Virus record (IMG/VR): IMGVR_UViG_3300043446_004571
Span: 1-42,985 of that record
From: a virus
Reading direction: 5' to 3' (one strand)
DNA: 42,985 nucleotides
In this document: piece after piece, positions 1,242-20,273 of the stretch
How the letters are laid out: every line of letters begins with the position of its first letter
Position numbering within the stretch: the first letter of the stretch is position 1
The notes under the pieces: generated by a model
Told to the model about the DNA's origin: nothing
Seen by the model: the letters and a program-made list of their open reading frames with translations, nothing else
Databases searched by the model: none
Made by a program: the position numbers and the translations under genes

Positions 1242-2003
1242 CTAGATACCCATTTCTTTACGTTTTTGCGTAGCCGATATAGCATGAATCTCTGCCCCCA
1301 AATCTACTTGTTCAATTTTATATCCTACATCACGGCCATATACTATGTTTGTAATGTTAGGTAGTCTTAATACTAATGCTCCATCCATAAAATCATCTTT
1401 TGCAATATATGCTTTTACTTCATCAAATTTAAGTGGATCTTTTTCACTTGTATTATATGTATTTCGAACACCTAAAAGGACTTGCTCTGTACGTTTTCCC
1501 GCTTCTTCATATAAAGCATGATGACCTTCATGCCACGGTTGATATCGACCAAGCATAAGTGTTGTTGGTGCAGACCAATCATGCAAGCCAAATTCCTTAA
1601 TTATTACAGATGCTTTATCATTTGCATCAAGTATGTGACTTGGAAATGATATATCGTATTGAGTTGGTTCTTCAAACATCTTATTTGTATCTTCAAAACG
1701 ACTTTCTTTAATTGTTCTCATCCAAACAAGAATATCTGGTTTTCCAAATGCTGCACGAGTTAAATCTGTAGGACATACAAAATCAACAATTACTGGGGCA
1801 ACTTCTTGTTTACCAATTAACCTAGCCATTTCTCCCATACGACGTGCTTGCTCAATTCTATCTTCTGGAGTAAAACCAAGATCTGAATTTACTGTTGCAC
1901 GAACTTCATCTGCATTTAGATGAATTGCATTGATACGCTCTTTTAATGCTTTGGCTAATTCAGTTTTACCAGATCCAGGTAAACCAATTATTTGAATAAT
2001 CAT
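1242..2003 (-). CDS. P-loop (APS-kinase-like) kinase fused to NMNAT-like nucleotidyltransferase
   Basis: 253 aa in two halves. Residues 1-140 are a P-loop kinase resembling adenylylsulfate kinase: Walker A GLPGSGKT (7-14), then NADEVR (30-35) and DLGFTPEDRIEQARR (41-55). Residues 145-253 are a HIGH-superfamily nucleotidyltransferase: GRYQPWHEGH (152-161, HxGH at 158-161) and the C-terminal ISATQKR (242-248), which is the ISxTxxR motif of NMN adenylyltransferases. Related phage proteins are usually labelled adenylylsulfate kinase or cytidylyltransferase. Kinase plus NMNAT also occurs in NadR, but in the opposite order. NAD salvage is therefore one possible role and nucleotide-sugar or sulfate activation another. 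A GAGG lies 8 nt before the ATG. A promoter and structured leader of about 100 nt precede the gene. Confidence 0.75.
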   Translation of the reverse strand: MIIQIIGLPGSGKTELAKALKERINAIHLNADEVRATVNSDLGFTPEDRIEQARRMGEMARLIGKQEVAPVIVDFVCPTDLTRAAFGKPDILVWMRTIKESRFEDTNKMFEEPTQYDISFPSHILDANDKASVIIKEFGLHDWSAPTTLMLGRYQPWHEGHHALYEEAGKRTEQVLLGVRNTYNTSEKDPLKFDEVKAYIAKDDFMDGALVLRLPNITNIVYGRDVGYKIEQVDLGAEIHAISATQKRKEMGI

Positions 2004-2601: not shown

Positions 2602-2630
2602 ATTATATCAAATTGTAAAAAAAATGTCTA
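2602..2630 (-). promoter_or_regulatory. sigma70-type promoter of hsp20
   Basis: TAGACA (2625-2630), a 17-nt spacer, then TATAAT (2602-2607), preceded by TGA to make an extended -10. The -35 overlaps the stop codon of the halogenase gene, so hsp20 can be expressed independently of the island. Confidence 0.75.
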
Positions 2631-4094
2631 CATATTACTATTTTTTAAATACTCTTCATGATCTACAAAACCTAGGGATTTTTCTTTAACTATTTTTATG
2701 TATTTTTGATATTTATCCTCATTCATAACATAATTAAAATTTCCGCCTATTTTATTTCCAGCATACACTGAAAGCCAGCTTGACAGTGGCCAGGATGGGG
2801 TAGTTGATATTTGATTATCTATCTGTCCCGTTTTCATATTTTCAATAAAATTTTTAACATCATGTATTAAAAATTTTGGAGCTGGGTGATCATTTTTAAA
2901 ATTTTTCCAAAAGCTTGTATTTTTTTTATTAGTATAATAATGTAAATATAAAAAGGATACGATGGCTTCGTTTCTTGTTTTGATTATTTTATTAAAAGAA
3001 ATTTTACTATTCATTCCATTATTTGAAATTTTTCCATTTATATAATCATCTAAATAATAATCGATGAACATAAAAAGTGTTCCTATAGAAGTTTCTATTG
3101 CAGTTGCTTCAAGTGGTTCAAAAAATTGAGAAGAAAGTCCAATTGCTAAACAGTTTTCTATCCATATATTTTCAAAATATCCTGGATCAAAAGAAAAATT
3201 ACCAAGTATTTCTAAATCATTACCAAATTTTTTTATCATTTCTGCTTCTGCTTGATCTTTGGATATGTATCTTTTATCATACACATAGCCACACCCATAT
3301 CTGTGCTGTAACGGTATTTTCCAAGACCATCCGTAATCCATCGCTATTGCTTCTGTATATGGAGGTATAATTTTACTTATTGATAATTTGCAAGCTATCG
3401 CATCGGTTGCTGGCAAATATTTTTTTACACTTACCCATTTGCTATTATAAAATTCACCAATTATTTTTCTTTTAAATCCAGTACAGTCCACAACAAAATC
3501 ACAATTTATTGTTGATCCATCTTCCATAATTAAAGATGTTATCTTATTATTTGAGTCTGATATAAAATCTTTTACAATGCCATCGATAATGTTAATCCCT
3601 CTAGCAATACATTCTTTTTCAAAAAAATTAACCATTAATCGTGAATCTATATGAAAAGAATAATTATTGTCATCAGATATTAAAACTTTGTTGGAATCAG
3701 ATATTACTGAAGAATAATTTATTTCATCTAAATTTTTATTATTAGATACACAATACTTATAGATATCAAAAAAAACATTTTTATCTTCAAAAATATTTTT
3801 TTTATCAGAAATTAAATCATAAAAACCATGAAACCAAGATTCTTCTTCAGACCATCCAGTAAATTTAATTCCATTTTTAATTGTACCCTTTGTTTCTTTA
3901 ATAAAAGTTTTGTGGTCTATTGATAAATCATTTAAAACCCTATGTATATTTGGAGTTAGGCCCTCACCTGGTCCAAGTATCCCTATGGATTTGCTGGCTA
4001 CCATAATGACATTAGCATCTTGCAGCTTATTTTTTAAAAGTAAAGAGCTTATGCATCCTGCAGTTCCGCCCCCAACTATAACAATATTTTTCAT
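2628..4094 (-). CDS. flavin-dependent (tryptophan-halogenase family) halogenase
   Basis: 488 aa, full length for the family. The FAD-binding Rossmann motif VGGGTAG is at 7-13 and GPGEGLTPNI follows at 41-50. KNGIKFTGW carries the conserved catalytic lysine (K73). GWSWKIP (255-261) is the WxWxIP signature that separates FAD-dependent halogenases from related monooxygenases. These enzymes use FADH2, O2 and halide to make hypohalous acid, which reaches the lysine through a tunnel; an external flavin reductase is needed. A phage halogenase (VirX1 of cyanophage Syn10) is known, so a phage source is credible. The substrate cannot be told from sequence. The start overlaps the membrane-protein gene as ATGA, so the two are coupled. 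Base composition is AT-rich like the rest of the island. Confidence 0.88.
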   Translation of the reverse strand: MKNIVIVGGGTAGCISSLLLKNKLQDANVIMVASKSIGILGPGEGLTPNIHRVLNDLSIDHKTFIKETKGTIKNGIKFTGWSEEESWFHGFYDLISDKKNIFEDKNVFFDIYKYCVSNNKNLDEINYSSVISDSNKVLISDDNNYSFHIDSRLMVNFFEKECIARGINIIDGIVKDFISDSNNKITSLIMEDGSTINCDFVVDCTGFKRKIIGEFYNSKWVSVKKYLPATDAIACKLSISKIIPPYTEAIAMDYGWSWKIPLQHRYGCGYVYDKRYISKDQAEAEMIKKFGNDLEILGNFSFDPGYFENIWIENCLAIGLSSQFFEPLEATAIETSIGTLFMFIDYYLDDYINGKISNNGMNSKISFNKIIKTRNEAIVSFLYLHYYTNKKNTSFWKNFKNDHPAPKFLIHDVKNFIENMKTGQIDNQISTTPSWPLSSWLSVYAGNKIGGNFNYVMNEDKYQKYIKIVKEKSLGFVDHEEYLKNSNM

Positions 4095-4396
4095 AAAATT
4101 ATCCCAAAATGTTTAAGTATATATGTGCAAGCCAAAATGCTCCAAAGAATATTAAACCATATTAAAGCTGGAAGTGTTTTAACCGTAGATGACCATATTA
4201 AAGACAAGCTAGATATTAAGGCAAAGATATATAACCACCATATGTTTGTATCAAAAAGAAGTCCTGGAATTATAATCAGTGCTTTAATCACAAAAGCAAA
4301 AAATTCTATTGTATTGGCCAAATTCCAATATTTTTTTTTAAACATTGTTTTTAAAGAAAAGTACCAACCACTATTAAATTTAATTAATAATTTCAT
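4091..4396 (-). CDS. small membrane protein next to the halogenase
   Basis: About 101 aa with an N-terminal amphipathic stretch (MKLLIKFNSGWYFSLKTMFKKKYW) and three likely membrane helices (roughly 31-48, 55-70 and 76-95). I do not recognise a family. A longer start at 4414 is possible, but the ATG at 4396 has a GGGTGA just upstream and the longer one has no ribosome site. It overlaps the flavin monooxygenase gene at its start and the halogenase gene at its end (ATGA). This makes it the middle gene of a three-gene operon, perhaps a membrane anchor or transporter partner. Confidence 0.6.
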   Translation of the reverse strand: MKLLIKFNSGWYFSLKTMFKKKYWNLANTIEFFAFVIKALIIIPGLLFDTNIWWLYIFALISSLSLIWSSTVKTLPALIWFNILWSILACTYILKHFGIIL

Positions 4397-5186
4397 TTTC
4401 ACCCGCTTCTTCATTCAAATAAATAATTTTTTTTGACATATTATGTATTCTATACCAATTTTCAATATCTCCTGCATCTCCCTGTAACATAAAATCTGTA
4501 ATTTTAGGATTATCCAGTATTATTTTATTTAATTTATTTATTACCTGATCTTCTGTTCCAAATATTGTTACATTTTCATTAAACTCTGACTGGATAACAT
4601 ATTGTTTGGCTTCTTCATAAGTATCTCTAATTACAATTGGTACACTTATAATGTTTTTATTTGATATAAATTTTGTTTGCTGTCCAATCCATGATAAATG
4701 GTAGTCAGCATATTCTTTAGCTAAATTATTTGTAATATCAGAATGACCACTCATAACAATTTCAGGAAAGCCACCGTCTATTTTAAAAGATTTAAATTTT
4801 TTAATCCATTCAGATGTATATTTTAACCTTTTTTCTGGTGTATCCATCAAATCATTTATGTATATTAAATCATTAATACTTTTTTCTTCTTTTTTTAAAT
4901 CTCCTGTTACTATATTTAACATCAATCTATTTGGTTGAATTTCATTAAAAGCACGACACATCATAGCACAATATTCTGGGGTCATTGCATAAGTTCGGAT
5001 TGCTGGCATATATTTAATTTTATGATTTTTATTAAGTATATGTGCTGCTTTAATCCAATGATCTGGCTGTGTTGAATGGTAAACCATTAATACAGAATAA
5101 TACCCGACACCATCCAATACTTCAGAAAGATTTTTTAATCCATCTATCGATGTGTCGTTTAACCTAGACATCCAATGCAACTTCAT
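4380..5186 (-). CDS. luciferase-like flavin monooxygenase (SsuD/LLM type)
   Basis: 268 aa. MKLHWMSRL, GYYSVLMVYHST, MPAIRTYAMTPEYCAMMCR, NRLMLNIVTGD (about 85-95) and the C-terminal FGTEDQVINKL follow the bacterial luciferase/alkanesulfonate monooxygenase pattern of a TIM barrel binding FMN or F420. It is shorter than free-living SsuD (about 340-380 aa): loops in the middle and the C-terminal helices are trimmed. Such enzymes oxidise small molecules with reduced flavin and O2 and need a reductase, which is not seen here. AAAGGTG precedes the ATG, and a clear promoter lies at 5211-5239. Together with the halogenase it makes two flavin-using oxidases in one short operon. Confidence 0.75.
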   Translation of the reverse strand: MKLHWMSRLNDTSIDGLKNLSEVLDGVGYYSVLMVYHSTQPDHWIKAAHILNKNHKIKYMPAIRTYAMTPEYCAMMCRAFNEIQPNRLMLNIVTGDLKKEEKSINDLIYINDLMDTPEKRLKYTSEWIKKFKSFKIDGGFPEIVMSGHSDITNNLAKEYADYHLSWIGQQTKFISNKNIISVPIVIRDTYEEAKQYVIQSEFNENVTIFGTEDQVINKLNKIILDNPKITDFMLQGDAGDIENWYRIHNMSKKIIYLNEEAGENEIIN

Positions 5187-5210
5187 AAAACACCTTTCTT
5201 AAACATAAGA

Positions 5211-5239
5211 ATTATATCAAAATAAAAAAAATATTTCAA
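5211..5239 (-). promoter_or_regulatory. promoter of the monooxygenase-halogenase operon
   Basis: TTGAAA (5234-5239), a 17-nt spacer, then TATAAT (5211-5216) within TGATATAAT. The -35 overlaps the last codons of the glycosyltransferase upstream. The expected start leaves a leader of about 18 nt with an AAAGGTG. Confidence 0.75.
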
Positions 5240-6231
5240 TCTTTTAACCAATTTGAACTATATACTTCGAGCTCTTTATAAAATTTTTTAAAATCAAATT
5301 TAATAAATTTATAATATTTTTTTAATAATTTTTTATTTGGAGCACCCCAATATCCAAACTCATTTCCTAAATAAAATCTTCTAACTCTACCTAAAGATTT
5401 AGCCATAGTAATGTCTTGAAAATTTTCGTTAGCCTCATCTCTCCAATCTATTTTTGATTTGGTTACCCCCTTATCTAGGTGGAATAGGATAAGTTTTGAT
5501 ATTGCAAATATTTTGTATCCACGAGTCCATGCCCTCATGCTAAAAATACCTTCATCTGCCGCCCAAACACATTTTGGATCATGTTGAATTTCCATAAACA
5601 TTTTTTTTCTAGCAAATACAAATGGTCCAGTCACTCCACGTATCTCTAAATATTTTTTATTTCCCCAATCAATATCATAACCATAAGTTATTGGATATCC
5701 ATGATCTAATGAATTTTTTATAGTTCCTAAGCTGACCATAGGTCCGTAAGGATTTGTTTTTGAAAAATATTCATTATTAGGCATATTATTTGGATCAAAA
5801 CTTTCATCTTCAATAGATTTTATATTTAATAAATAAATTTTATCTTTTTCTTTTTTCCAATTAAAAAGCATTCCAGATATTATTAATTTTTCATAATCTT
5901 TTTCTAAATCTTTAAATGAATCTATAATTTCTTCATCCCAATTTTTTACAAAAATCATATGTGCATCTACTTGTAAAATAAAATCTGCATCGTCAGGACA
6001 CATATTAATAGCATACATTCTACTAATACCAACTCCTGGTAAACTTTTTACATGCAAATTATTTACTATTACATTTGGCCTATGGTCTTCATAAACTGAA
6101 TCATCAAAAGTTGTATTTAAAACTCCAATGCAAATATTTTGTGGATATTTTGCATTATTAATTGCACTATCAATTGTTTGTTTTAAAAATTCTTCTTTAC
6201 AAGATATTATTGATATAAAAATTTTATCCAT
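5236..6231 (-). CDS. GT60-like glycosyltransferase (Skp1 GlcNAc-transferase family), copy 1
   Basis: 331 aa. The order of motifs matches the GT-A fold family of UDP-GlcNAc:polypeptide transferases (Pfam GlcNAc, GT60). FISIISCKEE is at the N-terminus, GVGISRMYA at 66-74, and the metal-binding LQVDAHMIFVKNWDE (DAH at 89-91) replaces the DxD. ADEGIFSMRAWTRGYKIF (225-242) and a conserved His (H251) follow. Known members attach alpha-GlcNAc to hydroxyproline of Skp1 or to mucin-type Ser/Thr. By inference it transfers a sugar to a protein or glycan in the phage-infected cell. It is a paralogue of the next gene and overlaps it by 8 nt. Sugar donor and acceptor are unknown. Confidence 0.78.
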   Translation of the reverse strand: MDKIFISIISCKEEFLKQTIDSAINNAKYPQNICIGVLNTTFDDSVYEDHRPNVIVNNLHVKSLPGVGISRMYAINMCPDDADFILQVDAHMIFVKNWDEEIIDSFKDLEKDYEKLIISGMLFNWKKEKDKIYLLNIKSIEDESFDPNNMPNNEYFSKTNPYGPMVSLGTIKNSLDHGYPITYGYDIDWGNKKYLEIRGVTGPFVFARKKMFMEIQHDPKCVWAADEGIFSMRAWTRGYKIFAISKLILFHLDKGVTKSKIDWRDEANENFQDITMAKSLGRVRRFYLGNEFGYWGAPNKKLLKKYYKFIKFDFKKFYKELEVYSSNWLKD

Positions 6232-7207
6232 TTTTTAAACCATAAAATTCTTTAAAGTTGATGGAACATGCATTTTCAAATTCATTTAATTTTTCAATGC
6301 TTGGGGATCCCCAATAACCTAAATATTGTCCCGTTAGTATGTCTTTCATTATTTTTTGACCGTCTTCATATCTTTTTAAATAAAATTTAAATAATCTTTT
6401 ATCATTATTTTTTAAATTTCTCCAATCATTTGGATCGTCTTTTCCATATGCTCCACCCATTGTTTTTTTATTATAATGAAAACATATAATTTCTTTAATT
6501 GAAAACATTCTATACCCTCTTGTCCAAGCTCTAAGCGAATATATTGGTTCATCTCCGCCCCAAGGCAATCTTGGATCATGAAGTATTTCATTGTATAGCT
6601 CTGGCCTACTAAAAGTAAATTGTGCAGATATTAAATTATGTTCTACAAAATCAACATTATTGCAATCTAACCCTTCAATTGTTGGATATCCATCTTGAAT
6701 TATTGCTTTTTTATAATCTCTAAACACAAGCCTTGATGCTTTTGCGTCTAGTGGCAGATTAAAATTTTTTATATCTTCCAATATATTATTATTAATAATT
6801 ATTTTTCCATCTAAATTATATTCCCAATGCGGGCAACGTGAACTAATTATTGGTTTTGAATATTGAGATTCTAAATTTAAATGATTATTGATCAAAATGT
6901 TATCCCAATTTTTTGTAAAAAGCATATGTGAATCTAATTGAAGTACGTAATCTGTATCTTGAAAAATAATAGAAGAAGTTATCAGTCTTGCAAGCCCTAT
7001 ACCTTGTGTGCCATTAAATTCCATTGGCATATATATAACATTATCTAAATCGGAAAAATCTGTTTTTGCAAATCCATTCATACAAAGATCAAAAATTCCA
7101 AAAGTTAATATATTTTCTCCACTGGAATTATTTATTGCACTCTCAACAGTTTGTCTCAAATCTTTTTCATTGGCACTGGTAATTGCCAAAAAAATTTTTT
7201 TATTCAA
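6224..7207 (-). CDS. GT60-like glycosyltransferase (Skp1 GlcNAc-transferase family), copy 2
   Basis: 327 aa, same architecture as its downstream neighbour: FLAITSANEKD, GIGLARLI (69-76), LQLDSHMLFTKNWD (DSH at 92-94), GGDEPIYSLRAWTRGYRMF (217-235), CFHY with H244, and the shared tail GYWGSP. All catalytic motifs appear intact in both copies, so they probably add two sugars in sequence or act on two acceptors. The start is TTG at 7207 with AAAGGA 6 nt upstream. A TATAAT at 7244-7249, immediately after the tRNA array, could be a promoter, but its -35 would lie in the tRNA(UAA) gene and is poor; read-through from the tRNA promoter is equally likely. Confidence 0.78.
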   Translation of the reverse strand: MNKKIFLAITSANEKDLRQTVESAINNSSGENILTFGIFDLCMNGFAKTDFSDLDNVIYMPMEFNGTQGIGLARLITSSIIFQDTDYVLQLDSHMLFTKNWDNILINNHLNLESQYSKPIISSRCPHWEYNLDGKIIINNNILEDIKNFNLPLDAKASRLVFRDYKKAIIQDGYPTIEGLDCNNVDFVEHNLISAQFTFSRPELYNEILHDPRLPWGGDEPIYSLRAWTRGYRMFSIKEIICFHYNKKTMGGAYGKDDPNDWRNLKNNDKRLFKFYLKRYEDGQKIMKDILTGQYLGYWGSPSIEKLNEFENACSINFKEFYGLKNG

Positions 7208-7252
7208 TATTTTTCCTTTAATTAATTTTACTACCTAGTATCTATTATACAG

Positions 7253-7325
7253 TGCCCTAAGTTGGATTCGAACCAACGCTTTCACGATTTTAAGTCGTGT
7301 GCCTCTACCGCTGGGCTATAAGGGC
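7253..7325 (-). tRNA. tRNA with UAA anticodon (Leu UUA) but short variable loop
   Basis: 73 nt. Acceptor GCCCTTA/TTAGGGC with one T-T mismatch, anticodon stem CACGA/TCGTG, loop CTTAAAA (anticodon TAA at 7290-7292), T-arm GTTGG TTCGAAT CCAAC, discriminator A. No CCA is encoded. The variable loop is only 5 nt (AAAGC), whereas tRNA-Leu is normally class II with a long arm, so the amino acid identity is less certain than the anticodon suggests. Confidence 0.85.
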
Positions 7326-7326
7326 G

Positions 7327-7399
7327 TGTCCCCAGTAGGTATCGATCCTACGACCCACAGATTAAAAGTCTGTTGCTCTACCAACTGAGCTATAGGGAC
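7327..7399 (-). tRNA. tRNA-Lys (UUU)
   Basis: 73 nt. Acceptor GTCCCTA/TGGGGAC, anticodon stem ACAGA/TCTGT, loop CTTTTAA (anticodon TTT), T-stem GTAGG/CCTAC, discriminator A, no CCA. The T-loop reads ATCGATA: position 54 is A instead of the near-universal T, so the usual T54-A58 pair cannot form. It reads AAA/AAG, abundant in this AT-rich phage. It starts 1 nt upstream of the tRNA(UAA). Confidence 0.92.
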
Positions 7400-7404
7400 T
7401 CAAG

Positions 7405-7477
7405 CTGGACCACCAGGGCTCGAACCTGGGACATCAGAGTTAACAGCTCTGCGCTCTGCCGACTGAGCTATGGTCCA
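7405..7477 (-). tRNA. tRNA-Asn (GUU)
   Basis: 73 nt. Perfect acceptor TGGACCA/TGGTCCA, anticodon stem CAGAG/CTCTG, loop CTGTTAA (anticodon GTT), T-arm CCAGG TTCGAGC CCTGG, discriminator G as expected for Asn, no CCA encoded. Canonical in all arms. Confidence 0.95.
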
Positions 7478-7480
7478 ATG

Positions 7481-7553
7481 CGCCTTTGGCAGGAATTGAA
7501 CCTGCGACCAATAGCTTAGAAGGCTACTGCTCTATCCCCTGAGCTACAAAGGC
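7481..7553 (-). tRNA. tRNA-Arg (UCU)
   Basis: 73 nt. Acceptor GCCTTTG/CAAAGGC, anticodon stem GTAGC/GCTAT, loop CTTCTAA (anticodon TCT), T-arm GCAGG TTCAATT CCTGC, discriminator G, no CCA. It reads AGA/AGG; AGA is common in this phage. First gene of the four-tRNA transcript. Confidence 0.95.
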
Positions 7554-7564
7554 TTAAAAAATAG

Positions 7565-7593
7565 AGTATACTATTGTTTTTAATTTTTGTCTA
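7565..7593 (-). promoter_or_regulatory. promoter of the four-tRNA array
   Basis: TAGACA (7588-7593), a 17-nt spacer, then TATACT (7565-7570). The expected start is about 5 nt upstream of tRNA-Arg. It overlaps the stop region of the oxygenase gene only slightly. Confidence 0.7.
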
Positions 7594-7596
7594 TAG

Positions 7597-8424
7597 TTAT
7601 AGATCTCTGTGCCTTATTCCAACAACTCCAGCATCTATTTCTGCTTGTAACTTTTCTGAAGGTTTCCATTCAAAATTAACTGGAGTAAGCCATTCACCAT
7701 TTCCAGTAAATTCTGAATTTGAATCAAACATAGTTGCCCATCTTTCTTCATTTTCTTTTGTGCCGTAAGTTGGAAATGTCCCTGGATGTTTTTCTATTGG
7801 CACAACAAAATTAGAATATGCATATCTTATTCCTGAAGTAATTTCATAAACACCGTGTGTTGTATCTGAATGTGCTCCGTGAATTATCAAATCACCTGGA
7901 TTTGGCTTTATTTTAAATTCTCCATCATATCCGTTATTTTTTTCAAATGGGTCAAAATTTCCTACAAAATTTCCATTTTTGTCTAGGTTTGGGTAATAAA
8001 CTTCTCCGCCTTCCCATTCACCAAAATAAACTATTGCTCCATAATGTATTACACAACATGTATTCCATATATCAGAAGCAATTAATTCTTCTTCCATGTT
8101 TTCTCCAGGACTATCTGCGTGATGATACATTCCACCGTCCCCTGGTTTTGTTCTTAATAATGTTAAACAAGGATGAACACAATATTCTGGTAAAAGCAAT
8201 TTATTTAAATCTTCCCAAACTTCATACAGCTCTGGTATAAAATCAGTAAATTTATCGTGATACCAATTTATTGTATGTGTTTCTACTTTTTTAGATAAAT
8301 CATTTAGATTTTCTTTTTCTTTTAAAATTTTATTAATCTGATTAAGTTTTTCTTCAGAAACAAAATTTCTATAAATATATACTTTATGGGCTACTTTTTC
8401 TACATTTGGGTTGTCGTGAAACAT
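7597..8424 (-). CDS. 2OG-Fe(II) oxygenase, prolyl-4-hydroxylase-like
   Basis: 275 aa. The double-stranded beta-helix iron site is visible: YHHADSPGE gives HxD (H102, D104), and THGVYEITSGIRYAYSNF gives the distal His (H190) and the 2-oxoglutarate-binding Arg (R200). GDLIIHGAHSD precedes it, as in the P4H-alpha/phage 2OG family. Such enzymes hydroxylate a protein, nucleic acid or small molecule using 2-oxoglutarate and O2. The AGGAGG ribosome site lies inside the last two codons of the carbamoyltransferase, and the start directly abuts its stop (TAAATG), so the two are translated together. Its neighbourhood with GT60-like transferases is the main hint that the target could be a proline later glycosylated. 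Confidence 0.82.
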   Translation of the reverse strand: MFHDNPNVEKVAHKVYIYRNFVSEEKLNQINKILKEKENLNDLSKKVETHTINWYHDKFTDFIPELYEVWEDLNKLLLPEYCVHPCLTLLRTKPGDGGMYHHADSPGENMEEELIASDIWNTCCVIHYGAIVYFGEWEGGEVYYPNLDKNGNFVGNFDPFEKNNGYDGEFKIKPNPGDLIIHGAHSDTTHGVYEITSGIRYAYSNFVVPIEKHPGTFPTYGTKENEERWATMFDSNSEFTGNGEWLTPVNFEWKPSEKLQAEIDAGVVGIRHRDL

Positions 8425-9849
8425 TTATCCTCCTATAACTTTCATGTTATTAATATTTTGCCATTTAATTATATCATTTTTATCGTTTAGTAGTGGCTGA
8501 CCTTTAATATTTAAACTAGTATTTAATAAAATAGGAACACCTGTTTTCATATAAAATCTATTTAGAACTTCCCAAAGCCCCGAATGTTCATTTTTATTAA
8601 CAGTTTGAACCCTTGATGTTCCATCTACATGTACAACAGAAGGTATGATATCTGATTTTAAACATTTTACTGTATATTGCATATATGGACTTTTAAAATT
8701 CATATCAAACCATTCCGAAGCATATTCTTCCATTACTACTGGAGCAAATGGCCTAAATAATTCTCTTTGTTTAATGCTATTGACCTTATCTTTAATGTTT
8801 GGATCTCTTGGATCTGCTAATATGCTCCTATTTCCTAATGCTCTTGGCCCATATTCCGCTCTTCCAGATGCTACTGCCACTATGCCATTGTCTAATATTC
8901 CATTAATAATATCTTCAATCGGATACTTTCCACCTAAATCATGACCAAGATACGGGCTATTCCAATTTATATGTTTGCCATATAAAGCAGCAGCTGCACC
9001 CAAAGAACTTCCAGCATCACCAGGATTTGGCATGATCCAAATATTATCAAAAATTTTCCAGAGGTGGGTATTGGCTGAAGAGTTTAAAGCACACCCTCCC
9101 ATAAAAACTAAATTGTTTTTCCCTGTTGTTGCCTTTACATTATTCATAAATTCCATTAAATGACTTTGATAAACTAATTGTACCGCAGCAGCTATATCGA
9201 ATTTATCTTTTTCAGTAATTGGCATTCCCCAATCTAATATTCCTTGATGAAAATTATATTTTTGTTTTGATGGAGAAGGAAAATATTCAAGAATTTCTTT
9301 TAAATATCTATTTGGATCACCATACGCAGCCATACCCATCATAATATATTCTTCTTGGTTTGGCATTAATCCAATTAATTGTGTAAATGCAGAATAAAAT
9401 AAACCAAAACTTACAGGATAATTTTGTTTATATTTTAATTTAATTTTTTCACCTTCACCGATCCAGACTGTTGAAGTGTTATATTCACCTACTGCATCCA
9501 GTACTACTATAGCTGCATCATTAAATTTACTTGTATAGTAACCAGCGCAGGCATGAGAATAATGATGATTAAAATATTTAACTGGAAGATCCATTGGTAT
9601 ATTTGGTTTCCAGTCAGAGGAACCACCTCTTAAAAATATTCTAGATCTTTTAAGTTGAGGATGTTCATAATATGCTATATGTGTTGGCGTTCCATAATTA
9701 AGCATATCGATGTATATTTCTTTATTGTTATACCAATCATTTTTTTTCTTACTATACCTTTCTGCATGAGCAGCAAAAAGTATTTCTCCATCTTTAATTA
9801 AAGAAATAGATGCATCGTGAGATGTTTCGTTAATACCTAAAATTATCAC
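8425..9849 (-). CDS. NodU/CmcH-family O-carbamoyltransferase
   Basis: 474 aa. MIILGINETSHDASISLIKD begins the Kae1-like ATPase half, with HHYSHA (95-100), GGCALN (251-256) and NPGDAGSSLGAA (275-286). The C-terminal half has GPRALGNRSILADPR (334-348), RELFRPFAPVV, and GVPILLNTSLNIKGQPL. All are hallmarks of the NodU/CmcH/TobZ family, which makes carbamoyl-adenylate from carbamoyl phosphate and moves the carbamoyl group to a hydroxyl of a sugar or antibiotic. It is about 80-100 residues shorter than typical members, mainly in the first half and the C-terminal tail. The start is GTG; AAGGA lies 13 nt upstream, so initiation may be weak. A 60-nt, nearly pure A/T spacer separates it from the SGNH gene. 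Confidence 0.88.
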   Translation of the reverse strand: MIILGINETSHDASISLIKDGEILFAAHAERYSKKKNDWYNNKEIYIDMLNYGTPTHIAYYEHPQLKRSRIFLRGGSSDWKPNIPMDLPVKYFNHHYSHACAGYYTSKFNDAAIVVLDAVGEYNTSTVWIGEGEKIKLKYKQNYPVSFGLFYSAFTQLIGLMPNQEEYIMMGMAAYGDPNRYLKEILEYFPSPSKQKYNFHQGILDWGMPITEKDKFDIAAAVQLVYQSHLMEFMNNVKATTGKNNLVFMGGCALNSSANTHLWKIFDNIWIMPNPGDAGSSLGAAAALYGKHINWNSPYLGHDLGGKYPIEDIINGILDNGIVAVASGRAEYGPRALGNRSILADPRDPNIKDKVNSIKQRELFRPFAPVVMEEYASEWFDMNFKSPYMQYTVKCLKSDIIPSVVHVDGTSRVQTVNKNEHSGLWEVLNRFYMKTGVPILLNTSLNIKGQPLLNDKNDIIKWQNINNMKVIGG

Positions 9850-9909
9850 TAGTATATATAATTCCTTTTTTTTATTATTTTTTTTATTTTTCTTTTTAAA
9901 ATAATTTTT

Positions 9910-10758
9910 TTAATTTTTTTTATCATTTATATACTTTTCATAAAAAATTTCTGCCCACATTGTGTGGAATGCTGTACCCAAATGTGAATGATCTTTTGCT
10001 TTTAGTTCTGATATTTTGGCATCTTTTATATATTCATCTGTATTATATATATCAAGATAACCATCAATATCATATGTTTTTGAAAAATCTTCATAACAAT
10101 TTCTATTCCAACTTGACCAGTAGAGCTTTATATTATTTATTTGACAAAAATCATTTAAAATAGTTATCATTAATTCATTATAAAATTGATTTATTTTTAT
10201 ATCTATTTCTTTTTCAGACTTAGTGTATATTTTTGATTTATCAAATAGTTTTTTTGCAACGTCCTTGTTTGCTGCTAAAAACAAATGAGTATAGTTTTCA
10301 TTTTCAATTGACCAAGATAAAAATCTATTGTGATCAGGAAATATTACAAACAATGTTTCTGGTTTTCCAAATAATTTAATATAATTAAATATATTTTTTA
10401 TAATCATTGAACAAGAAAGTCCAGCTTTTCCAATATTAAAATAGCCATCTAAATTTTCATTTAATTTAATTTTTTCATATAATTTTTTTGCCCAAACATC
10501 TTCAAATTCATTACCTATGCCTTCAGTTTCTGAACATCCTGCAAACAAAATATGTTTTTTTGTTATATCACTATTAAATTCATCAGATCTAAATCCATAT
10601 TTATTATATTTATACATATCGTGGTCATAAACAACACCCATCTTTTTTTCAAAATCTAACGAGTTTATTGATTGATTTGGAAAAAAAACACCAAAAAAAT
10701 AATTTAAATTGTCAAAATGAACATGATGTTCAATTGCTATATTCTTATCAAACTTCAT
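9910..10758 (-). CDS. SGNH-like hydrolase/acyltransferase
   Basis: 282 aa. YGFRSDEF, then HILFAGCSETEGIG (69-82; likely nucleophile S76), NIGKAGLSCS (block II Gly), FVIFPDHNR (block III region) and DHSHLG near the C-terminus (D256, H259) are the blocks of the SGNH/GDSL superfamily as seen in pelagic phages. Family members are esterases or O-acetyl transferases acting on glycans. No signal peptide, so it acts in the cytoplasm or in the virion. It overlaps the MDR gene by 11 nt. Ribosome site weak. Fits a glycan-decorating role with its neighbours, but the substrate is unknown. Confidence 0.6.
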   Translation of the reverse strand: MKFDKNIAIEHHVHFDNLNYFFGVFFPNQSINSLDFEKKMGVVYDHDMYKYNKYGFRSDEFNSDITKKHILFAGCSETEGIGNEFEDVWAKKLYEKIKLNENLDGYFNIGKAGLSCSMIIKNIFNYIKLFGKPETLFVIFPDHNRFLSWSIENENYTHLFLAANKDVAKKLFDKSKIYTKSEKEIDIKINQFYNELMITILNDFCQINNIKLYWSSWNRNCYEDFSKTYDIDGYLDIYNTDEYIKDAKISELKAKDHSHLGTAFHTMWAEIFYEKYINDKKN

Positions 10759-11692
10759 TTGTTAAAATTAATTTTCCGCAAGTTGATCTTGATCTTATTT
10801 TTTCATGCATCAGTTTAGCATCTTTTAAACTCATTTTTTCGCCTATAACAATTTTTATTTTTTTATTCTTAATTAAATCAAATAAATTTTCAACAACTAC
10901 TTTTAATTTAGCTGGATTTTGCAAGAATACTCTATTACCCCAAAATCCAGATATTGTTCTTGAATCTTTTAACAATTCTCTTAATTGAATTGCTGGGAGA
11001 CCTTCTCTTGAAGAAGCACCATATGAGCATATATGACCATTTGTTGCCAATAATCCATAATATGTCATAAAAGATCTACCTCCATACGATTCCATAATAA
11101 ATTTTGGTTTAGATCCTATTGATTTTATTAATTTATTAATTTCATCTACATTATCTAAACAAACATAGTCTAATCCTAGTGTTTTAACTACATTTAACTT
11201 TTCTTCATCTGAGGAAACACCAATTACTTTAGCGCCAGCCAATTTACATAGTTGAGCTAAAATCATGCCAGTTGTTCCAGATGCTCCATTTACTAAAACT
11301 AAATCTCCAGGCAATATGTTGCATACATCATTAACAATTCCGTATGCGGTTGATCCTTGAACCATTACACACAACGCTTCTTCTTCGGTCACCCCGTCTG
11401 GAACTTCAAACATTTTATCTTCATTAATTATAATTTTTTCTGCGTATGCTCCGCTTGAAGCATATCCTATAAAAAGTTTATTATCTAATACGAAAGATGC
11501 TTCTATTCCAGGGATTACTGGTGGCATAGTTTGAATTAGATAACTATTTTCAGTTTGATATGTATCGGCATAATTTACACCTATCATCCTAGTATTTACT
11601 AAAAACTGCCCTTTTCCTGGAATTGGTTCTTTATAATCAGTGTATTCCATAACTTCTGGACCACCAAATGATTTTACAACTATTGCTTTCAT
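10748..11692 (-). CDS. MDR-family NADPH:quinone oxidoreductase-like enzyme
   Basis: 314 aa, complete for zinc-free medium-chain reductases (QOR/zeta-crystallin group). MKAIVVKSFGGPEVMEY is the usual start, IGVNYADTY is the substrate-domain signature, and the Rossmann motif NGASGTTGMILAQL (135-148) binds NADP. No catalytic zinc Cys/His set is visible. It reduces quinones, enones or other activated double bonds with NADPH. GGAGTG precedes the ATG, which overlaps the previous stop (TAATG). In the island it could supply a reduction step or maintain redox balance. Confidence 0.85.
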   Translation of the reverse strand: MKAIVVKSFGGPEVMEYTDYKEPIPGKGQFLVNTRMIGVNYADTYQTENSYLIQTMPPVIPGIEASFVLDNKLFIGYASSGAYAEKIIINEDKMFEVPDGVTEEEALCVMVQGSTAYGIVNDVCNILPGDLVLVNGASGTTGMILAQLCKLAGAKVIGVSSDEEKLNVVKTLGLDYVCLDNVDEINKLIKSIGSKPKFIMESYGGRSFMTYYGLLATNGHICSYGASSREGLPAIQLRELLKDSRTISGFWGNRVFLQNPAKLKVVVENLFDLIKNKKIKIVIGEKMSLKDAKLMHEKIRSRSTCGKLILTNEV

Positions 11693-12090
11693 TACACTCC
11701 CATTTCTAGTCTGTACTCTATAAGTATATCAAATAATAAATCTGAATATAATTTATTAACAAGAAGGAATTGATTTGTATTTGGATTACATAATTGTATT
11801 AATTCATCATAAGCATATGTATCTATTTCAAAAAACCATTTTATATGCTCAATAAATAAATTAAATAATTCATGACCTTCTTTTGTTTTTGCAGATATTT
11901 TTAAATTTATCGCCTCATCAAATTTATCTTGAAATTCATATGCCTCTTTAAGCATAATAGAATATTCATCTTTTGAATAAGTTTTCATTTTTTCAGTAGC
12001 CTTTATTACCCAAGGATTATCTGGAAAAATTTTTGCTATTTCTTGAAATAAAAATCTTCTATTTTCAAATTTTTTATCATCAAACTGCAT
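11692..12090 (-). CDS. small all-helical protein, possibly TipAS-like
   Basis: 132 aa, predicted entirely helical, rich in Phe, Tyr and Trp. The segment EGHELFNLFIEHIKWFFEIDTYAYDEL followed by a helix pair (NQFLLVNKLYSDLLFDILIEY) faintly resembles the TipAS ligand-binding domain of MerR-type regulators (helix, WFY, helix, helix), but there is no DNA-binding domain and the likeness is by eye only. GAGGA precedes the ATG. It shares an operon with the acidic protein upstream and the MDR enzyme downstream. Confidence 0.6.
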   Translation of the reverse strand: MQFDDKKFENRRFLFQEIAKIFPDNPWVIKATEKMKTYSKDEYSIMLKEAYEFQDKFDEAINLKISAKTKEGHELFNLFIEHIKWFFEIDTYAYDELIQLCNPNTNQFLLVNKLYSDLLFDILIEYRLEMGV

Positions 12091-12091
12091 A

Positions 12092-12394
12092 CTATAAATC
12101 CTCTATTGGGATGACCCCTTTTTCTTTTGCTATTGTAAATCCTTCTTCTGAAAAATGCATCGTTACTTCTAAATTTTCGTCATATTCTACTTGCATTAAT
12201 CCTTGTTGAAAAAGATCAAGAAGGCTGTCATCGACATACTCCATGTGTGCATCCCAAAGTTCTGGAGCCAATTCTTTTGTTTTTTCTTCATTTAATTCAA
12301 AAATTGCTTCTCCATTTTCATCAAATCCTGCTAATGTGATGGCACCTATTTCAATATAATATTGAATTTTATCTAAAGCTTCTTCATCGTTCAT
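12092..12394 (-). CDS. small acidic phage protein, function unknown
   Basis: About 100 aa, strongly acidic, with a helical N-terminus (EALDKIQYYIEIGAITLAG) and a mixed C-terminal half ending EEGFTIAKEKGVIP, winged-helix-like in feel. I do not recognise the family. A longer start at 12412 would run into the tRNA; the ATG at 12394 has GGAG 6 nt upstream and is preferred. First protein gene after the tRNA(CAU), so it should be on the transcript from the strong promoter at 12490-12519. Confidence 0.7.
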   Translation of the reverse strand: MNDEEALDKIQYYIEIGAITLAGFDENGEAIFELNEEKTKELAPELWDAHMEYVDDSLLDLFQQGLMQVEYDENLEVTMHFSEEGFTIAKEKGVIPIEDL

Positions 12395-12407
12395 GATGTC
12401 TCCTATG

Positions 12408-12481
12408 TGCACCAGGTAGGACTTGAACCTACGACTACCGAATTATGAGTTCGGGGCTCTAACCAACTAAGCTACTGGTGC
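12408..12481 (-). tRNA. tRNA (CAU), elongator Met or Ile2
   Basis: 74 nt. Acceptor GCACCAG/CTGGTGC, anticodon stem CCGAA/TTCGG, loop CTCATAA (anticodon CAT), T-arm GTAGG TTCAAGT CCTAC, discriminator A, no CCA. It lacks the initiator marks (C1-A72 mismatch and three G-C pairs in the anticodon stem). AT-rich phages often carry the lysidine-modified Ile2 tRNA for AUA codons, so Met versus Ile is open. Confidence 0.93.
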
Positions 12482-12489
12482 CTAGTTGA

Positions 12490-12519
12490 ATTATATATTT
12501 TAAATATCTTTTTTGTCAA
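12490..12519 (-). promoter_or_regulatory. strong consensus sigma70 promoter of tRNA(CAU)
   Basis: TTGACA (12514-12519), an 18-nt spacer, then TATAAT (12490-12495): both hexamers are perfect. The start should fall at about 12483, two nucleotides before the tRNA 5' end. It overlaps the 3' end of the small Zn protein gene and probably also drives the island genes downstream. Confidence 0.85.
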
Positions 12520-12739
12520 TAGATTGTTCAACAATTTGTTGTACGTAATCAGAAAAATGTTTCCTTATATTTCCTGGAGGCCTTTTTCCAATTTCATTCC
12601 ATATTCTTTTATATTCTAATATATTGTCAAATGTTGTAGAACAAACTTTTATACCTTCATATTCTTTCAACCTTACTGGTAGCGGAACATGTTTTCCACA
12701 GCATTTACACTCTTTTGCTTTGTCTTGATATATACTCAT
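12500..12739 (-). CDS. small zinc-knuckle protein after terminase
   Basis: 79 aa. CKCCGKHVPLPVRLKEYEG and a further Cys (VCSTTF) make a small zinc-knuckle-like N-terminus, followed by a basic helical tail. No family recognised. It starts inside the terminase gene stop (ATGA), so it is coupled to it and could be a packaging accessory. Confidence 0.65.
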   Translation of the reverse strand: MSIYQDKAKECKCCGKHVPLPVRLKEYEGIKVCSTTFDNILEYKRIWNEIGKRPPGNIRKHFSDYVQQIVEQSIDKKDI

Positions 12740-14538
12740 AATATTTCCATTCCATCTAGGGCATCTGATAAAACTTTTGGCATTGCCGAAGGAGCTTTAA
12801 TTAAATTATGTGATTCTTGTTGCATCTCTTCCCTACGCTGCCTTCTCATTGAATCATATGTATGAATCTCTACTGCACCAAAATCAGGTCTTGTTAAACT
12901 TATAGCATTATATATTGATCCACATACTGCGTCAGCTAAATCCTTAGACCCTTTGCGTGGGTGATCAACCTTATCACGCATAATTCTTAACTCTAATAAC
13001 TCATCAATAAGCAATTTAATATTGGGTCCAGATAATCTTTCTTCTAGGACTACCATTGCCATGTCATCATAATGTTTTTTTGCAACAGATAATGTTTCAG
13101 TATTAATTCCGTATTGTTTTAATTGTTGCATCATATCATGTGAATTCCATCTATCAAAAGTACATATTCTTATATTAAATCCTCGTGACCTTAAAGATAA
13201 AATATAATCTCTTACTTCAGTAAAATCTACTGACTTGTCTGTAGTTGGAGTCCAATATCTTACAACATCAACATCAACTATTGGTGCTGTTTGAGAATAA
13301 TTATCTGTTACCTTTACATTAACCCATTTATTTATATGCGCCATAGATACTGCACAATGGTCATGTTTTTGAGCTAAATCTACATGTATAAAGTATTCTT
13401 TATTCTCTTGTGGAATAAACCACTCTTCAAATCTACCAAATTGATCAACAGCCAATGGAAACTTATTAAATGCTTTTTCTATTTTTTCACGAGATTTAAA
13501 AAATGCATCAACTGCTTCTGGTGGCATACATGCAAATCTACCTAAAGCATCGGGCATATTTTTATAAAACTCAACTTTAAAATCTTCAATTTTTTTAGTA
13601 GGATTAATTTCCCATGTTGGTCTTTTTAATGCGTAAACTTTTGGGATTTTATATGAAACAATATGATCTTCTTCCCATTCCACCATAATCTCATTTCCAT
13701 CCGTATTATCTGGTAAATCATCATCCATCTTTAATGTTTTTGATCTAACAATTGTTTCTTTTTCTGCAATTGCAGAGTCATAAAATTTTTGTATTGGATC
13801 ATTTTTAAAACGTGGAAATGACAATAAAATAATTTTACCGTAATCTGGAAAACGAGATATTACTGATCCACGATACATATCGTATATAGCGTCTGCTGTT
13901 TTTGCTTGATCGTGTCCTGTTGTATTTTCTGTTGCAAATCCAGAAATCTCATCAAGAATTACTGCAATTACGTTATAACCCTCAAAAGCTTCTCTTTCTG
14001 AGTGTCCTGAATAAACATTCACATTTTTATCAAATCTAATTTCCGCTGCCTTTGGATCATATTTTCCAATAAACCATGGGGATCTTTCAATTCTTGTTTT
14101 AAAACCTTTAAAAAAAACATTATTTGCTTGCTGTGCGTTAACAGCAATATTAATAATGTCTATGGTATCGCCTGGAGGTTTGCCGTAATAAGTTGCTGGG
14201 TCTTTAAGACATAATAATAGATAAACTATATAGGAAACTGATATTGTAGAAGTATAGTCTTTTCCAGAACCTTTACCTAATTGTGCAATAATTTCGGTGC
14301 AAGTCTGTTTGTATCTTCTTTTACCTTCTTCTTCGCCAAAAAGTTTAATTAAAGTAGATTCTTTATATATTTGAGATCCTTTTTCAATTAAAATATATTG
14401 ATAATCAGAAAGAGGTGGAAGTCCAAGATAGTCTGGGTGCGTAACAAATGTACGAAGATCTACTGGACGTTCGTCAAATTCTTCACCATCCAATAAATCA
14501 ATAAGATCATTAAAATTAAGATCCACTAACTTCCTCAA
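12736..14538 (-). CDS. terL: terminase large subunit
   Basis: 600 aa. The ATPase half has Walker A-like QLGKGSGKD (86-94) and Walker B VIAVILDE (190-197). The RNase H-like nuclease half has the expected acidic residues: YFIHVDLA (D387), RICTFDRWNS (D462) and GSKDLADAVCG (D533/D536). The enzyme cuts concatemeric DNA and pumps it into the capsid. It overlaps the putative small subunit gene by 23 nt, and both should be read from the promoter at 15061-15069. Confidence 0.93.
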   Translation of the reverse strand: MRKLVDLNFNDLIDLLDGEEFDERPVDLRTFVTHPDYLGLPPLSDYQYILIEKGSQIYKESTLIKLFGEEEGKRRYKQTCTEIIAQLGKGSGKDYTSTISVSYIVYLLLCLKDPATYYGKPPGDTIDIINIAVNAQQANNVFFKGFKTRIERSPWFIGKYDPKAAEIRFDKNVNVYSGHSEREAFEGYNVIAVILDEISGFATENTTGHDQAKTADAIYDMYRGSVISRFPDYGKIILLSFPRFKNDPIQKFYDSAIAEKETIVRSKTLKMDDDLPDNTDGNEIMVEWEEDHIVSYKIPKVYALKRPTWEINPTKKIEDFKVEFYKNMPDALGRFACMPPEAVDAFFKSREKIEKAFNKFPLAVDQFGRFEEWFIPQENKEYFIHVDLAQKHDHCAVSMAHINKWVNVKVTDNYSQTAPIVDVDVVRYWTPTTDKSVDFTEVRDYILSLRSRGFNIRICTFDRWNSHDMMQQLKQYGINTETLSVAKKHYDDMAMVVLEERLSGPNIKLLIDELLELRIMRDKVDHPRKGSKDLADAVCGSIYNAISLTRPDFGAVEIHTYDSMRRQRREEMQQESHNLIKAPSAMPKVLSDALDGMEIL

Positions 14539-15052
14539 CTATTTGAATAGGCTCAACTATACCAGTTATTTGAGATAATCTTTTTGCTACATCTAATTTA
14601 CATTTAGTACATGTGGAAGTTACTTCTTTAAGAATTTTAACAAGCACATCTTGTTTTCTTTCTGCCTCTGCTACCTGCCCCGCTAATTCTGCATTATCTA
14701 ATAATCCAACCTGCTGTAGCATACCAATTCTTTTTGTCTCAATATCTGAGATTAACTTCAAAGCATTAGCTTTTACATTAAGCTGTCCTTGCTGATCAGC
14801 ATCTTCTACTGTCTTCCAAGCTTCTTTTATAAGCATTGCATAATGTTGGTCTGCTCCAGATACGGCTTCCTTTGCCCTGTCACGAGCCGTATTATCGTTT
14901 CTAACGACCTGTTTCCACTCGTCTATATATTCCACAACCTCTGCACGTTTAAAACCCGTTATAGAGGCAATCTGGGTAGGATTATTACCCTTCAATAATT
15001 CTTCTACAACCTTATTCATACGATCAAAATGATCAGCTAATTCAATATCCAT
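14516..15052 (-). CDS. terminase small subunit (probable)
   Basis: 178 aa. An N-terminal helix-turn-helix (VVEELLKGNNPTQIASITGF, then KRAEVVEYIDEW) would bind the packaging site; a long helical middle (residues 65-150) suits oligomer formation; a CTKC pair sits near 140. Assignment rests on size, HTH and position directly before terL. The ATG lies 8 nt after a TGGTATAAT, so there is no room for a ribosome site and the message is probably leaderless. Confidence 0.7.
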   Translation of the reverse strand: MDIELADHFDRMNKVVEELLKGNNPTQIASITGFKRAEVVEYIDEWKQVVRNDNTARDRAKEAVSGADQHYAMLIKEAWKTVEDADQQGQLNVKANALKLISDIETKRIGMLQQVGLLDNAELAGQVAEAERKQDVLVKILKEVTSTCTKCKLDVAKRLSQITGIVEPIQIVEEVSGS

Positions 15053-15060
15053 ATATATAA

Positions 15061-15069
15061 ATTATACCA
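15061..15069 (-). promoter_or_regulatory. late-type extended -10 promoter, leaderless terS
   Basis: The minus strand reads TGGTATAAT, then 8 nt, then the ATG of the small terminase gene. No -35 fits. The identical nonamer sits 6 nt before the ATG of the polyproline virion gene (38163-38171). Confidence 0.6.
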
Positions 15070-15081
15070 TATTTTAGTTGA

Positions 15082-15411
15082 CTAAGATCTAGACTTAGCT
15101 ATTTTAAGCAATATTAAATAGCCAATTAAATCATCAATATCATTATCTCCTGGAAATTGTTGATCATTTTGAATTCTATTTAATTTATCATCAATACGAA
15201 CTTTTAATTGCTCTATTGAATCTGTTTTTGAAAATATACGAATTGGATCAAGTGCAGAATTTCCGTAAGATATATTTTTATTGATTAGCATATGAGCAAT
15301 TTCATGACATTCTTTCCAAATTGCAGGTCCTGCAGGAGCCCCCGTAGATTTTAAATATAAATCACTACAGCTAAAATTTTTAACGTCTGGAAATACTGGG
15401 CTAAGCTCCAT
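15082..15411 (-). CDS. MazG-like/nucleotide-modification-associated small protein
   Basis: About 109 aa. KNISYGNSALDPIRIFSK, then VRIDDKLNRIQ and DDLIGYLILLKIAK, is the helical pattern seen in phage proteins of the DUF6378/all-alpha NTP pyrophosphohydrolase type; the usual acidic metal-binding cluster is only partly visible. It may trim or protect the nucleotide pool. The ATG at 15411 is preferred because AAGGTGG lies 9 nt upstream; a start at 15420 would sit on that site. It overlaps the SGNH-like gene end. Confidence 0.6.
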   Translation of the reverse strand: MELSPVFPDVKNFSCSDLYLKSTGAPAGPAIWKECHEIAHMLINKNISYGNSALDPIRIFSKTDSIEQLKVRIDDKLNRIQNDQQFPGDNDIDDLIGYLILLKIAKSRS

Positions 15412-18227: not shown

Positions 18228-18228
18228 A

Positions 18229-20253: not shown

Positions 20254-20273
20254 ATAAACCTTTTCTTTCTATT

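Follow-up and report, generated by a model that had tools for sequence, protein, structure and literature searches.

Aquatic phages have long been annotated with halogenases, 2-oxoglutarate (2OG) oxygenases and carbamoyltransferases whose role in them is, to our knowledge, not established. The Skp1 PhyA-Gnt1 pair of Dictyostelium joins a prolyl hydroxylase to a GT60 glycosyltransferase. Among viral halogenases, the biochemistry and structure of the iodinating enzyme VirX1 from cyanophage Syn10 have been described (PMC8407142). Gene clusters with related enzymes include the crocagin cluster, which carries CgnD (SGNH) and CgnI (carbamoyltransferase) (PMC10070186), the gvg cluster of 4-formylaminooxyvinylglycine (FVG), with gvgA and gvgF as core genes (PMC8064604, PMC8067088), and the Pantoea PNP-1 cluster, in which pnp1B and pnp1D are required (PMC4010436). 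Here, the whole of IMG/VR virus record IMGVR_UViG_3300043446_004571 was analysed as the window. It is a linear tailed-phage fragment of 42,985 bases that has almost every gene on the (-) strand, and the analysis focused on an island of tailoring-type enzymes between its terminase and hsp20 genes. This island is one filling of a variable cargo site. The reading favoured here, with about even confidence, is that this region, in a large uncultivated lineage of freshwater actinophages, holds two modules that are split by a tRNA array and exchanged separately between phages, module A serving glycan or glycoconjugate tailoring and module B membrane-associated halogenation.

The cargo site and its contents

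The island and the edges of the cargo site comprise the following features.

2125-2544, (-) strand: hsp20, one edge of the cargo site (phrog_432 E 4e-39)
2628-4094, (-) strand: HAL, predicted flavin-dependent halogenase, PF04820 (Pfam E 3.8e-93)
4091-4414, (-) strand: smTM, small membrane protein of 107 aa with three predicted hydrophobic helices (4-nt overlap with HAL)
4380-5186, (-) strand: LUX, compact luciferase-like (SsuD-type) flavin monooxygenase (PF00296 E 8.6e-10; SsuD-type PDB matches)
5236-6231, (-) strand: GTa, GT60-type glycosyltransferase (PF11397 E 1.1e-19; D-x-H motif QVDAHM)
6224-7207, (-) strand: GTb, GT60-type glycosyltransferase, a paralogue of GTa at 35% identity (PF11397 E 5.3e-24; D-x-H motif QLDSHM)
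7252-7553, (-) strand: four tRNA genes, Leu-UAA, Lys-UUU, Asn-GUU and Arg-UCU (ARAGORN)
7597-8424, (-) strand: 2OG-Fe(II) oxygenase (phrog_61 E 5e-4; invariant HxD...H...R)
8425-9849, (-) strand: CARB, NodU/CmcH-type O-carbamoyltransferase (PF02543 E 5e-38, PF16861 E 3e-54)
9910-10758, (-) strand: SGNH-hydrolase-fold protein (AlphaFold2 model; GCSxTxG and DxxHxG kept)
10748-11692, (-) strand: MDR reductase, NAD(P)H:quinone oxidoreductase of the PIG3/Qor type (PF00107 E 2.6e-18)
11692-12090, (-) strand: g11692, small open reading frame (ORF) of 132 aa directly before MDR (weak TipAS-like match, PF07739 E 1.8e-4)
12736-14538, (-) strand: TerL, terminase large subunit, the other edge of the cargo site (phrog_9 E 3e-14)

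A sequence-only reading of this stretch had described eight tailoring-type enzymes in one block between the terminase genes and hsp20. All eight ORFs are present, six of them with strong family matches, and their motifs are intact; the remaining two assignments were borne out by an invariant motif in three orthologues (2OG) and by predicted structure (SGNH). The location of the block was also correct, but its continuity was not, as the four tRNA genes split it, and two conserved genes, smTM and g11692, had been overlooked. Gene junctions overlap or abut on both sides of the array, upstream in g11692-MDR-SGNH and CARB-2OG and downstream in GTb-GTa and LUX-smTM-HAL. A chimeric assembly join at the tRNA array is unlikely, since a similar array precedes GT60 in relatives (L098, L124 and L157; L-numbers are labels of related IMG/VR loci compared with the window). 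Part of the assembly is further backed by contig IMGVR_UViG_3300043395_004001, which is 99.4% identical and spans window positions 7896-20692. This contig (L184) stops within the 2OG gene, a possible sign that the downstream cargo varies between strains. With regard to the AT-rich composition that the block was said to share, gene GC content is 0.23-0.32 in the island compared to 0.31-0.37 in the tested replication and tail genes; the island genes are thus slightly more AT-rich, but the ranges of GC content at third codon positions overlap those of core genes, and AT-richness was rejected as a sign of common origin.

TerL and hsp20 lie 10.2 kb apart in the window compared to 0.67-8.5 kb (median 1.36 kb) in 50 relatives spanning the site. 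The cargo differs among these relatives and includes SGNH and carbamoyltransferase genes; GT61, nucleotidyltransferase and phosphodiesterase-like genes; KatG, Dps and IMPDH-like genes; or AhpC/AhpD-like genes, where names without a Pfam match were assigned by inspecting the sequence. Such inspection also showed KatG-like and Dps-like proteins together with an IMPDH/GMPR-like enzyme as cargo at the site in L054, L063 and L066.

A scan of IMG/VR for TerL found at least 589 relatives, of which the best 80 loci were used, with some contigs of 105-120 kb. Loci were found throughout by pattern scans, which favour close relatives, and the best 80 loci per scan were retained; ORF calling was mechanical, and family profiles were iterated on the fetched loci only. 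The DnaE-type polymerase of the window is 56% identical to that of Streptomyces phage BillNye and a WhiB protein (PF02467) is present in one relative of the same terminase lineage, suggesting that the host is most likely an actinobacterium. The lineage appears to be a freshwater one, based on the IMG sample types of related records, which we take to be freshwater, and on resemblance to the Dishui Lake actinophage DSL-LC01.

The carbamoyltransferase cassette and the halogenase pair

Module A is a conserved cassette in which g11692-MDR-SGNH-carbamoyltransferase leads into 2OG or sulfotransferase, the tRNAs and finally GT60. The MDR scan returned 16 loci, two of which (L185 and L186) are distant and alcohol-dehydrogenase-like. 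Among the other 14, g11692 directly precedes MDR in all 14, SGNH directly follows it in 13 and the carbamoyltransferase comes next in 12, and the loci with this order share the same position after TerL. The next gene past the carbamoyltransferase is either 2OG (window, L175 and L178-L180) or sulfotransferase-like (L176, L177, L181 and L182), with GT60 further on. In the TerL sample, which was chosen for neither gene, SGNH and carbamoyltransferase occur together in 4 loci, are both absent from 46 and never occur alone; the associated p-value of 4e-6 is too small owing to relatedness. The carbamoyltransferase scan likewise placed an SGNH neighbour in 39 of 47 non-redundant clusters, and relatives carry several divergent SGNH copies per locus. 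GT60 is found near the carbamoyltransferase in 13/79 loci (8 clusters) compared to 0/74 carbamoyltransferase-free TerL loci. 2OG genes are scattered among the scanned loci. On a different backbone, L119, L093 and their relatives show GT60-like, 2OG and (in L119) carbamoyltransferase genes in a row; these rows include a 240-aa family resembling phrog_7084, with an IPxWYK-like motif recognised by eye.

The SGNH ORF has no profile match. Its AlphaFold2 model, with a predicted local distance difference test score (pLDDT) of 83 and a predicted template modelling score (pTM) of 0.85, bears out the SGNH fold and, among solved structures, matches the crocagin protein CgnD best (8a2n; Z 17.1 over 220 residues), followed by TesA (13.9). 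In the model, which was also compared with carbohydrate esterases, the block I Ser and block V Asp/His are present; GCSxTxG keeps its Ser and DxxHxG its Asp/His in 21 to 32 homologues, and the region equivalent to the block III Asn (GxND) reads PD..R in most homologues. CARB has both its N- and C-terminal domains and the motifs HHxxH and GRxEYGPRALGNRSI, and its PDB relatives are those of the GdmN/TobZ family. It is 32-39% identical to the three cyanophage and pelagiphage types compared, versus 26% to the 5-hydroxymethylcytosine (5hmC) enzyme found by MetaGPA. In L059 (15952-17373), the carbamoyltransferase has an internal stop or frameshift, and the gene may be decaying or the assembly in error. 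A genome-collection scan with the carbamoyltransferase alignment, made with short patterns that reach close relatives only, confirmed no bacterial relative.

MDR matches a PIG3-family NCBIfam model at E 6e-36, which is under that model's cut-off, and has Qor as its PDB relatives; g11692 falls just short of the PF07739 cut-off. In 2OG, the iron triad and distal Arg (H102-x-D104, H190 and R200) are invariant in three orthologues. Profile support is weak and general, with the phrog_61 match of the window protein and a match of an orthologue to PF13640 at E 0.014, and does not distinguish the prolyl 4-hydroxylase subfamily. GTa and GTb score 72 and 86 bits against a PF11397 cut-off of 21, with DAH and DSH as their D-x-H motifs, and belong to the GT60 family by profile and motif; as such they may transfer GlcNAc to hydroxyproline, Ser or Thr of a protein. 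Searches of GenBank phages by tblastn with the window GTb, 2OG and SGNH gave no match, a result that reflects which phages have been cultured, since all three genes are found in IMG/VR loci; PF11397 glycosyltransferases are sparse among cultured phages and present in 32 loci here.

For module B, HAL scores 313 bits against the PF04820 cut-off of 21, and its closest PDB structures are PrnA (E 3e-55) and VirX1 (E 2e-38). Alignment and comparison with PrnA indicate intact motifs, namely GGGTAG (FAD), Lys73 at the position of PrnA Lys79, W256xWKIP and EPLE. By profile and motifs HAL belongs to the flavin-dependent halogenase family, with halogenation as its predicted activity. Profiling of the window ORFs turned up no dedicated flavin reductase. 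While the sequence-only reading had considered halogenases and carbamoyltransferases to be individually rare in phages, 82 halogenase and 144 carbamoyltransferase matches were found among 50,697 GenBank phage records, which makes both families common in marine phages rather than rare. The halogenase matches are mainly from cyanophages and pelagiphages, and P-SSM2, HTVC008M and S-SSM7 appear on both lists. Alignment-based scans of IMG/VR yielded 328 halogenase and at least 534 carbamoyltransferase relatives; with the window HAL as a single protein no IMG/VR match was obtained, and the 328 came from its alignment with three relatives.

The small membrane protein smTM, which has 418 IMG/VR relatives, is conserved and previously undescribed, and it recurs beside the halogenase. 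It has no Pfam match above cut-off, no PHROG match and no GenBank phage match, and a pattern scan of prokaryote genomes, again with short patterns and reaching close relatives only, confirmed no relative. HAL adjoins smTM in 40/72 loci of the smTM scan, chosen without regard to the halogenase, and smTM is adjacent in 22/78 loci of the halogenase scan, chosen without regard to smTM. Across all loci there are 64 adjacent pairs (38 at 90% non-redundancy), every one on the same strand and overlapping, although start-codon choice by the ORF caller may account in part for the larger of these overlaps (47 to 70 nt). The order is HAL-smTM in 22 of the 38 non-redundant pairs and smTM-HAL in 16. In a quick halogenase tree, which places the window HAL in a clade of mostly smTM-before rows, a three-state label (smTM before, after or none) takes 14 changes, and on strongly supported branches alone at least 12 changes are needed for smTM presence or absence. 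Because the gene order reverses while the overlap persists, there is strong evidence that these two predicted proteins share a function.

The HAL-smTM settings include the primase/SSB-DnaE interval, the TerL-hsp20 site, kinase/DUF genes, tail-fibre genes and sulfotransferase-like genes; a luciferase-like gene is near HAL in few loci only. In L282 (4124-7229) and L283 (6158-7992), three to four tandem sulfotransferase-like genes lie upstream of the halogenase-smTM pair, flanked by 2OG genes. In L158, L200 and L253, halogenase, smTM, and phrog_7084 or DUF6065 proteins are situated within a tail-fibre/collar/collagen-like/LamG cluster ahead of the head genes.

The joint pathway that had been proposed for all eight enzymes was supported in that several genes recur together and some pairs overlap, but the genes occur as separable modules in relatives and the full eight-gene set was not seen in any other of the loci compared. 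Halogenase, luciferase-like and 2OG genes occur singly in unrelated places, whereas MDR-SGNH-carbamoyltransferase stays together. HAL adjoins SGNH-carbamoyltransferase in L155/L156, L160 and L158, and lies within reach of it in L250/L258, L332/L335 and L336. A carbamoyltransferase is located six or fewer genes from HAL in 3/78 halogenase-scan loci, which is not above the lineage frequency of 6/80 TerL loci; modules A and B therefore appear to be independent and to share landing sites.

Weighing the explanations

The favoured reading builds on the identities and motifs of the genes, the conservation of the modules, the pairing of smTM with HAL and the cargo site. Most likely, module A would build and trim a decorated glycan or glycoconjugate, with GT60 adding a sugar, the 2OG oxygenase providing hydroxylation, the carbamoyltransferase carbamoylating a hydroxyl and SGNH removing or transferring an acyl group. 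A glycan fed by nucleotide sugars is favoured because elsewhere GT60 has genes for GDP-mannose dehydratase, epimerase, GT2 and a sugar cupin among its neighbours; in HTVC008M, the carbamoyltransferase adjoins glycosyltransferase, methyltransferase and UDP-glucose dehydrogenase genes. Module B (luciferase-like-smTM-halogenase) would carry out flavin-dependent halogenation at the membrane, with smTM probably either positioning the halogenase there or supplying it with a membrane-bound substrate, a placement suggested by the predicted topology of smTM. Several points weigh against this account. The window is only a 43-kb fragment of an incomplete genome, and kinship among the loci means that raw counts and p-values overstate independence. 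Substrates, reaction order, a role at the membrane and a connection between A and B are all inferred. In addition, the divergent SGNH copies could be peptidases like CgnD rather than acyl-esterases, the identity of 2OG depends on motifs, and confidence in the smTM model is modest (pLDDT 70, pTM 0.49). The HAL-smTM pairing is also not obligate, as 32/72 smTM genes are without a neighbouring HAL and 56/78 HAL genes without smTM.

The main rival to a glycan as the product of module A is a small molecule or peptide. As in the crocagin and FVG routes, all enzymes could act one after another on a single substrate, either a small molecule or a ribosomal peptide, to give a carbamoylated and perhaps halogenated compound in the infected cell. 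The proximity of the SGNH model to CgnD, the crocagin leader peptidase (Z 17.1 compared to 13.9 for the next match), the pairs of SGNH/esterase and NodU-type carbamoyltransferase known from the crocagin, gvg and Pantoea PNP-1 clusters, and the presence of a 2OG dioxygenase in crocagin, with related clusters swapping the carbamoyltransferase for a glycosyltransferase (PMC10070186), are all consistent with such a route. However, the largest non-tRNA gap in the island is approximately 60 nt, leaving no room for a precursor-peptide gene, and none of its unassigned ORFs is fit to be CgnB or CgnE; a check of island ORFs and gaps found neither a crocagin-type precursor peptide nor CgnB/CgnE-type peptide-binding proteins. 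It is also at odds with the multiple divergent SGNH copies found per locus in relatives and with the split of the genes into modules; a single pathway of this type is decidedly unlikely. Because the island is without a precursor gene or CgnB/CgnE, it is not filed with the crocagin clusters, though it may work alike. Proteins of the DUF6065 and phrog_7084 families are recurrent neighbours of halogenases and GT60; as candidates for a CgnB/CgnE-like role they were rejected, since a PDB sequence search gave no match. It is quite improbable that these phages encode a natural-product pathway that follows the SGNH-carbamoyltransferase logic of crocagin and FVG and yields, in the infected cell, a small molecule or modified peptide that is carbamoylated and in some phages also halogenated, with HAL held at the membrane by the phage-specific smTM.

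Alternatively, the enzymes could decorate the virion by hydroxylating, glycosylating or halogenating residues of tail fibres or adhesins. The HAL genes of L158, L200 and L253 (with smTM, 2OG or carbamoyltransferase) lie among tail-fibre, collar, collagen-like and LamG genes, the DSL-LC01 halogenase comes after collagen-like genes and before a glycosyltransferase, that of P-SSM2 adjoins tail-fibre assembly genes, and a secreted PA14 protein is encoded past hsp20 in many relatives. Yet 12 non-redundant loci have smTM-HAL between primase and SSB, far from virion genes, which argues against virion decoration as the sole role. In addition, long Gly-X-Y stretches are missing from the window tail genes, and one would not expect a modifier of virion proteins to have a membrane partner. 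Virion decoration is considered unlikely. A literature search for phage hydroxyproline glycosylation of tail fibres gave no match. A role in DNA hypermodification, with the carbamoyltransferase making 5-carbamoyloxymethylcytosine in phage DNA, has a precedent in the NodU-type enzyme from a sewage phage that acts on 5hmC in DNA (PMC8670742). The thymidylate-synthase homologue that partners the enzyme in the known system (PF00303) is absent from the window and from 14 related records of up to 120 kb, carbamoyltransferase carriers included (several are large, none has a completeness estimate), and identity to the characterised enzyme is 26%; on both grounds DNA carbamoylation is disfavoured and seems extremely remote. 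Finally, a recombination hotspot could have collected separate auxiliary genes into mixed cargo that has no shared function. This explanation fits the scatter of luciferase-like and 2OG genes and the finding that other phages have KatG, Dps, AhpC-like, IMPDH-like, nucleotidyltransferase or GT61 genes at this site. It does not fit the conserved order of g11692-MDR-SGNH-carbamoyltransferase or the recurrence of overlapping HAL-smTM pairs in different contexts, and it is regarded as very improbable.

Some neighbouring genes also recur in the lineage. The secreted PA14-domain protein, which has a signal-like N-terminus, is found at the window edge (1-756) and in approximately 80 loci just past hsp20; the L155 copy bears a PT-rich disordered stretch, and the protein is a possible adhesin or glycosylation target. 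A kinase-nucleotidyltransferase gene (phrog_10255; window 1242-2003) is 80-89% identical in relatives and sited at several places. Ntn-hydrolase/HslV-like proteins, recognised by eye from an MTCIVA.. start, are frequent in the lineage (e.g., L006 19858-20478 and L119 2965-3498); one of them was searched against Pfam without a match.

Comparison with known systems

The recurring modules narrow the question of what these phage enzymes do to two associations, SGNH with carbamoyltransferase and a three-helix membrane protein with halogenase. Should smTM prove to be a genuine partner of the halogenase, it would represent a new kind of flavin-halogenase accessory protein and point to a membrane-bound substrate. 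The likeness of the SGNH-carbamoyltransferase pair to antibiotic clusters, in turn, makes phage-made natural products a concrete hypothesis.

As in Dictyostelium Skp1 PhyA-Gnt1, 2OG oxygenase and GT60-family genes stand side by side, a likeness at the family level only; unlike PhyA, the island 2OG is not a confirmed prolyl hydroxylase. The MetaGPA 5hmC carbamoyltransferase (PMC8670742) and CARB are both phage NodU-type enzymes, but the window protein is 26% identical and without the thymidylate-synthase partner. HAL belongs to the same family as VirX1 and the tryptophan-halogenase-like proteins of cyanophages and pelagiphages (PF04820, phrog_2928), all phage-borne with intact FAD, Lys and WxWxIP motifs; its nearest GenBank phage relative, from HTVC008M, is 37% identical. 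The clade of the window HAL is mostly preceded by smTM, whereas smTM was not seen beside the annotated cyanophage and pelagiphage halogenase genes examined. Similarly, CARB shares the two-domain NodU/CmcH architecture and motifs of marine-phage Nol-like carbamoyltransferases (phrog_1601; 32-39% identity), but the freshwater actinophage clade is paired with SGNH, and the annotated marine loci examined are without a named SGNH partner. A core pair of SGNH/esterase and NodU-type carbamoyltransferase is common to the island and the crocagin, FVG (gvg) and PNP-1 clusters, and CgnD, the closest solved structure, resembles the phage SGNH at the level of the fold, which does not imply orthology. Where those clusters have a precursor peptide, CgnB/CgnE, GvgC or an aminotransferase, which are absent from the island, the phage loci instead have GT60, MDR and sulfotransferase-like genes.

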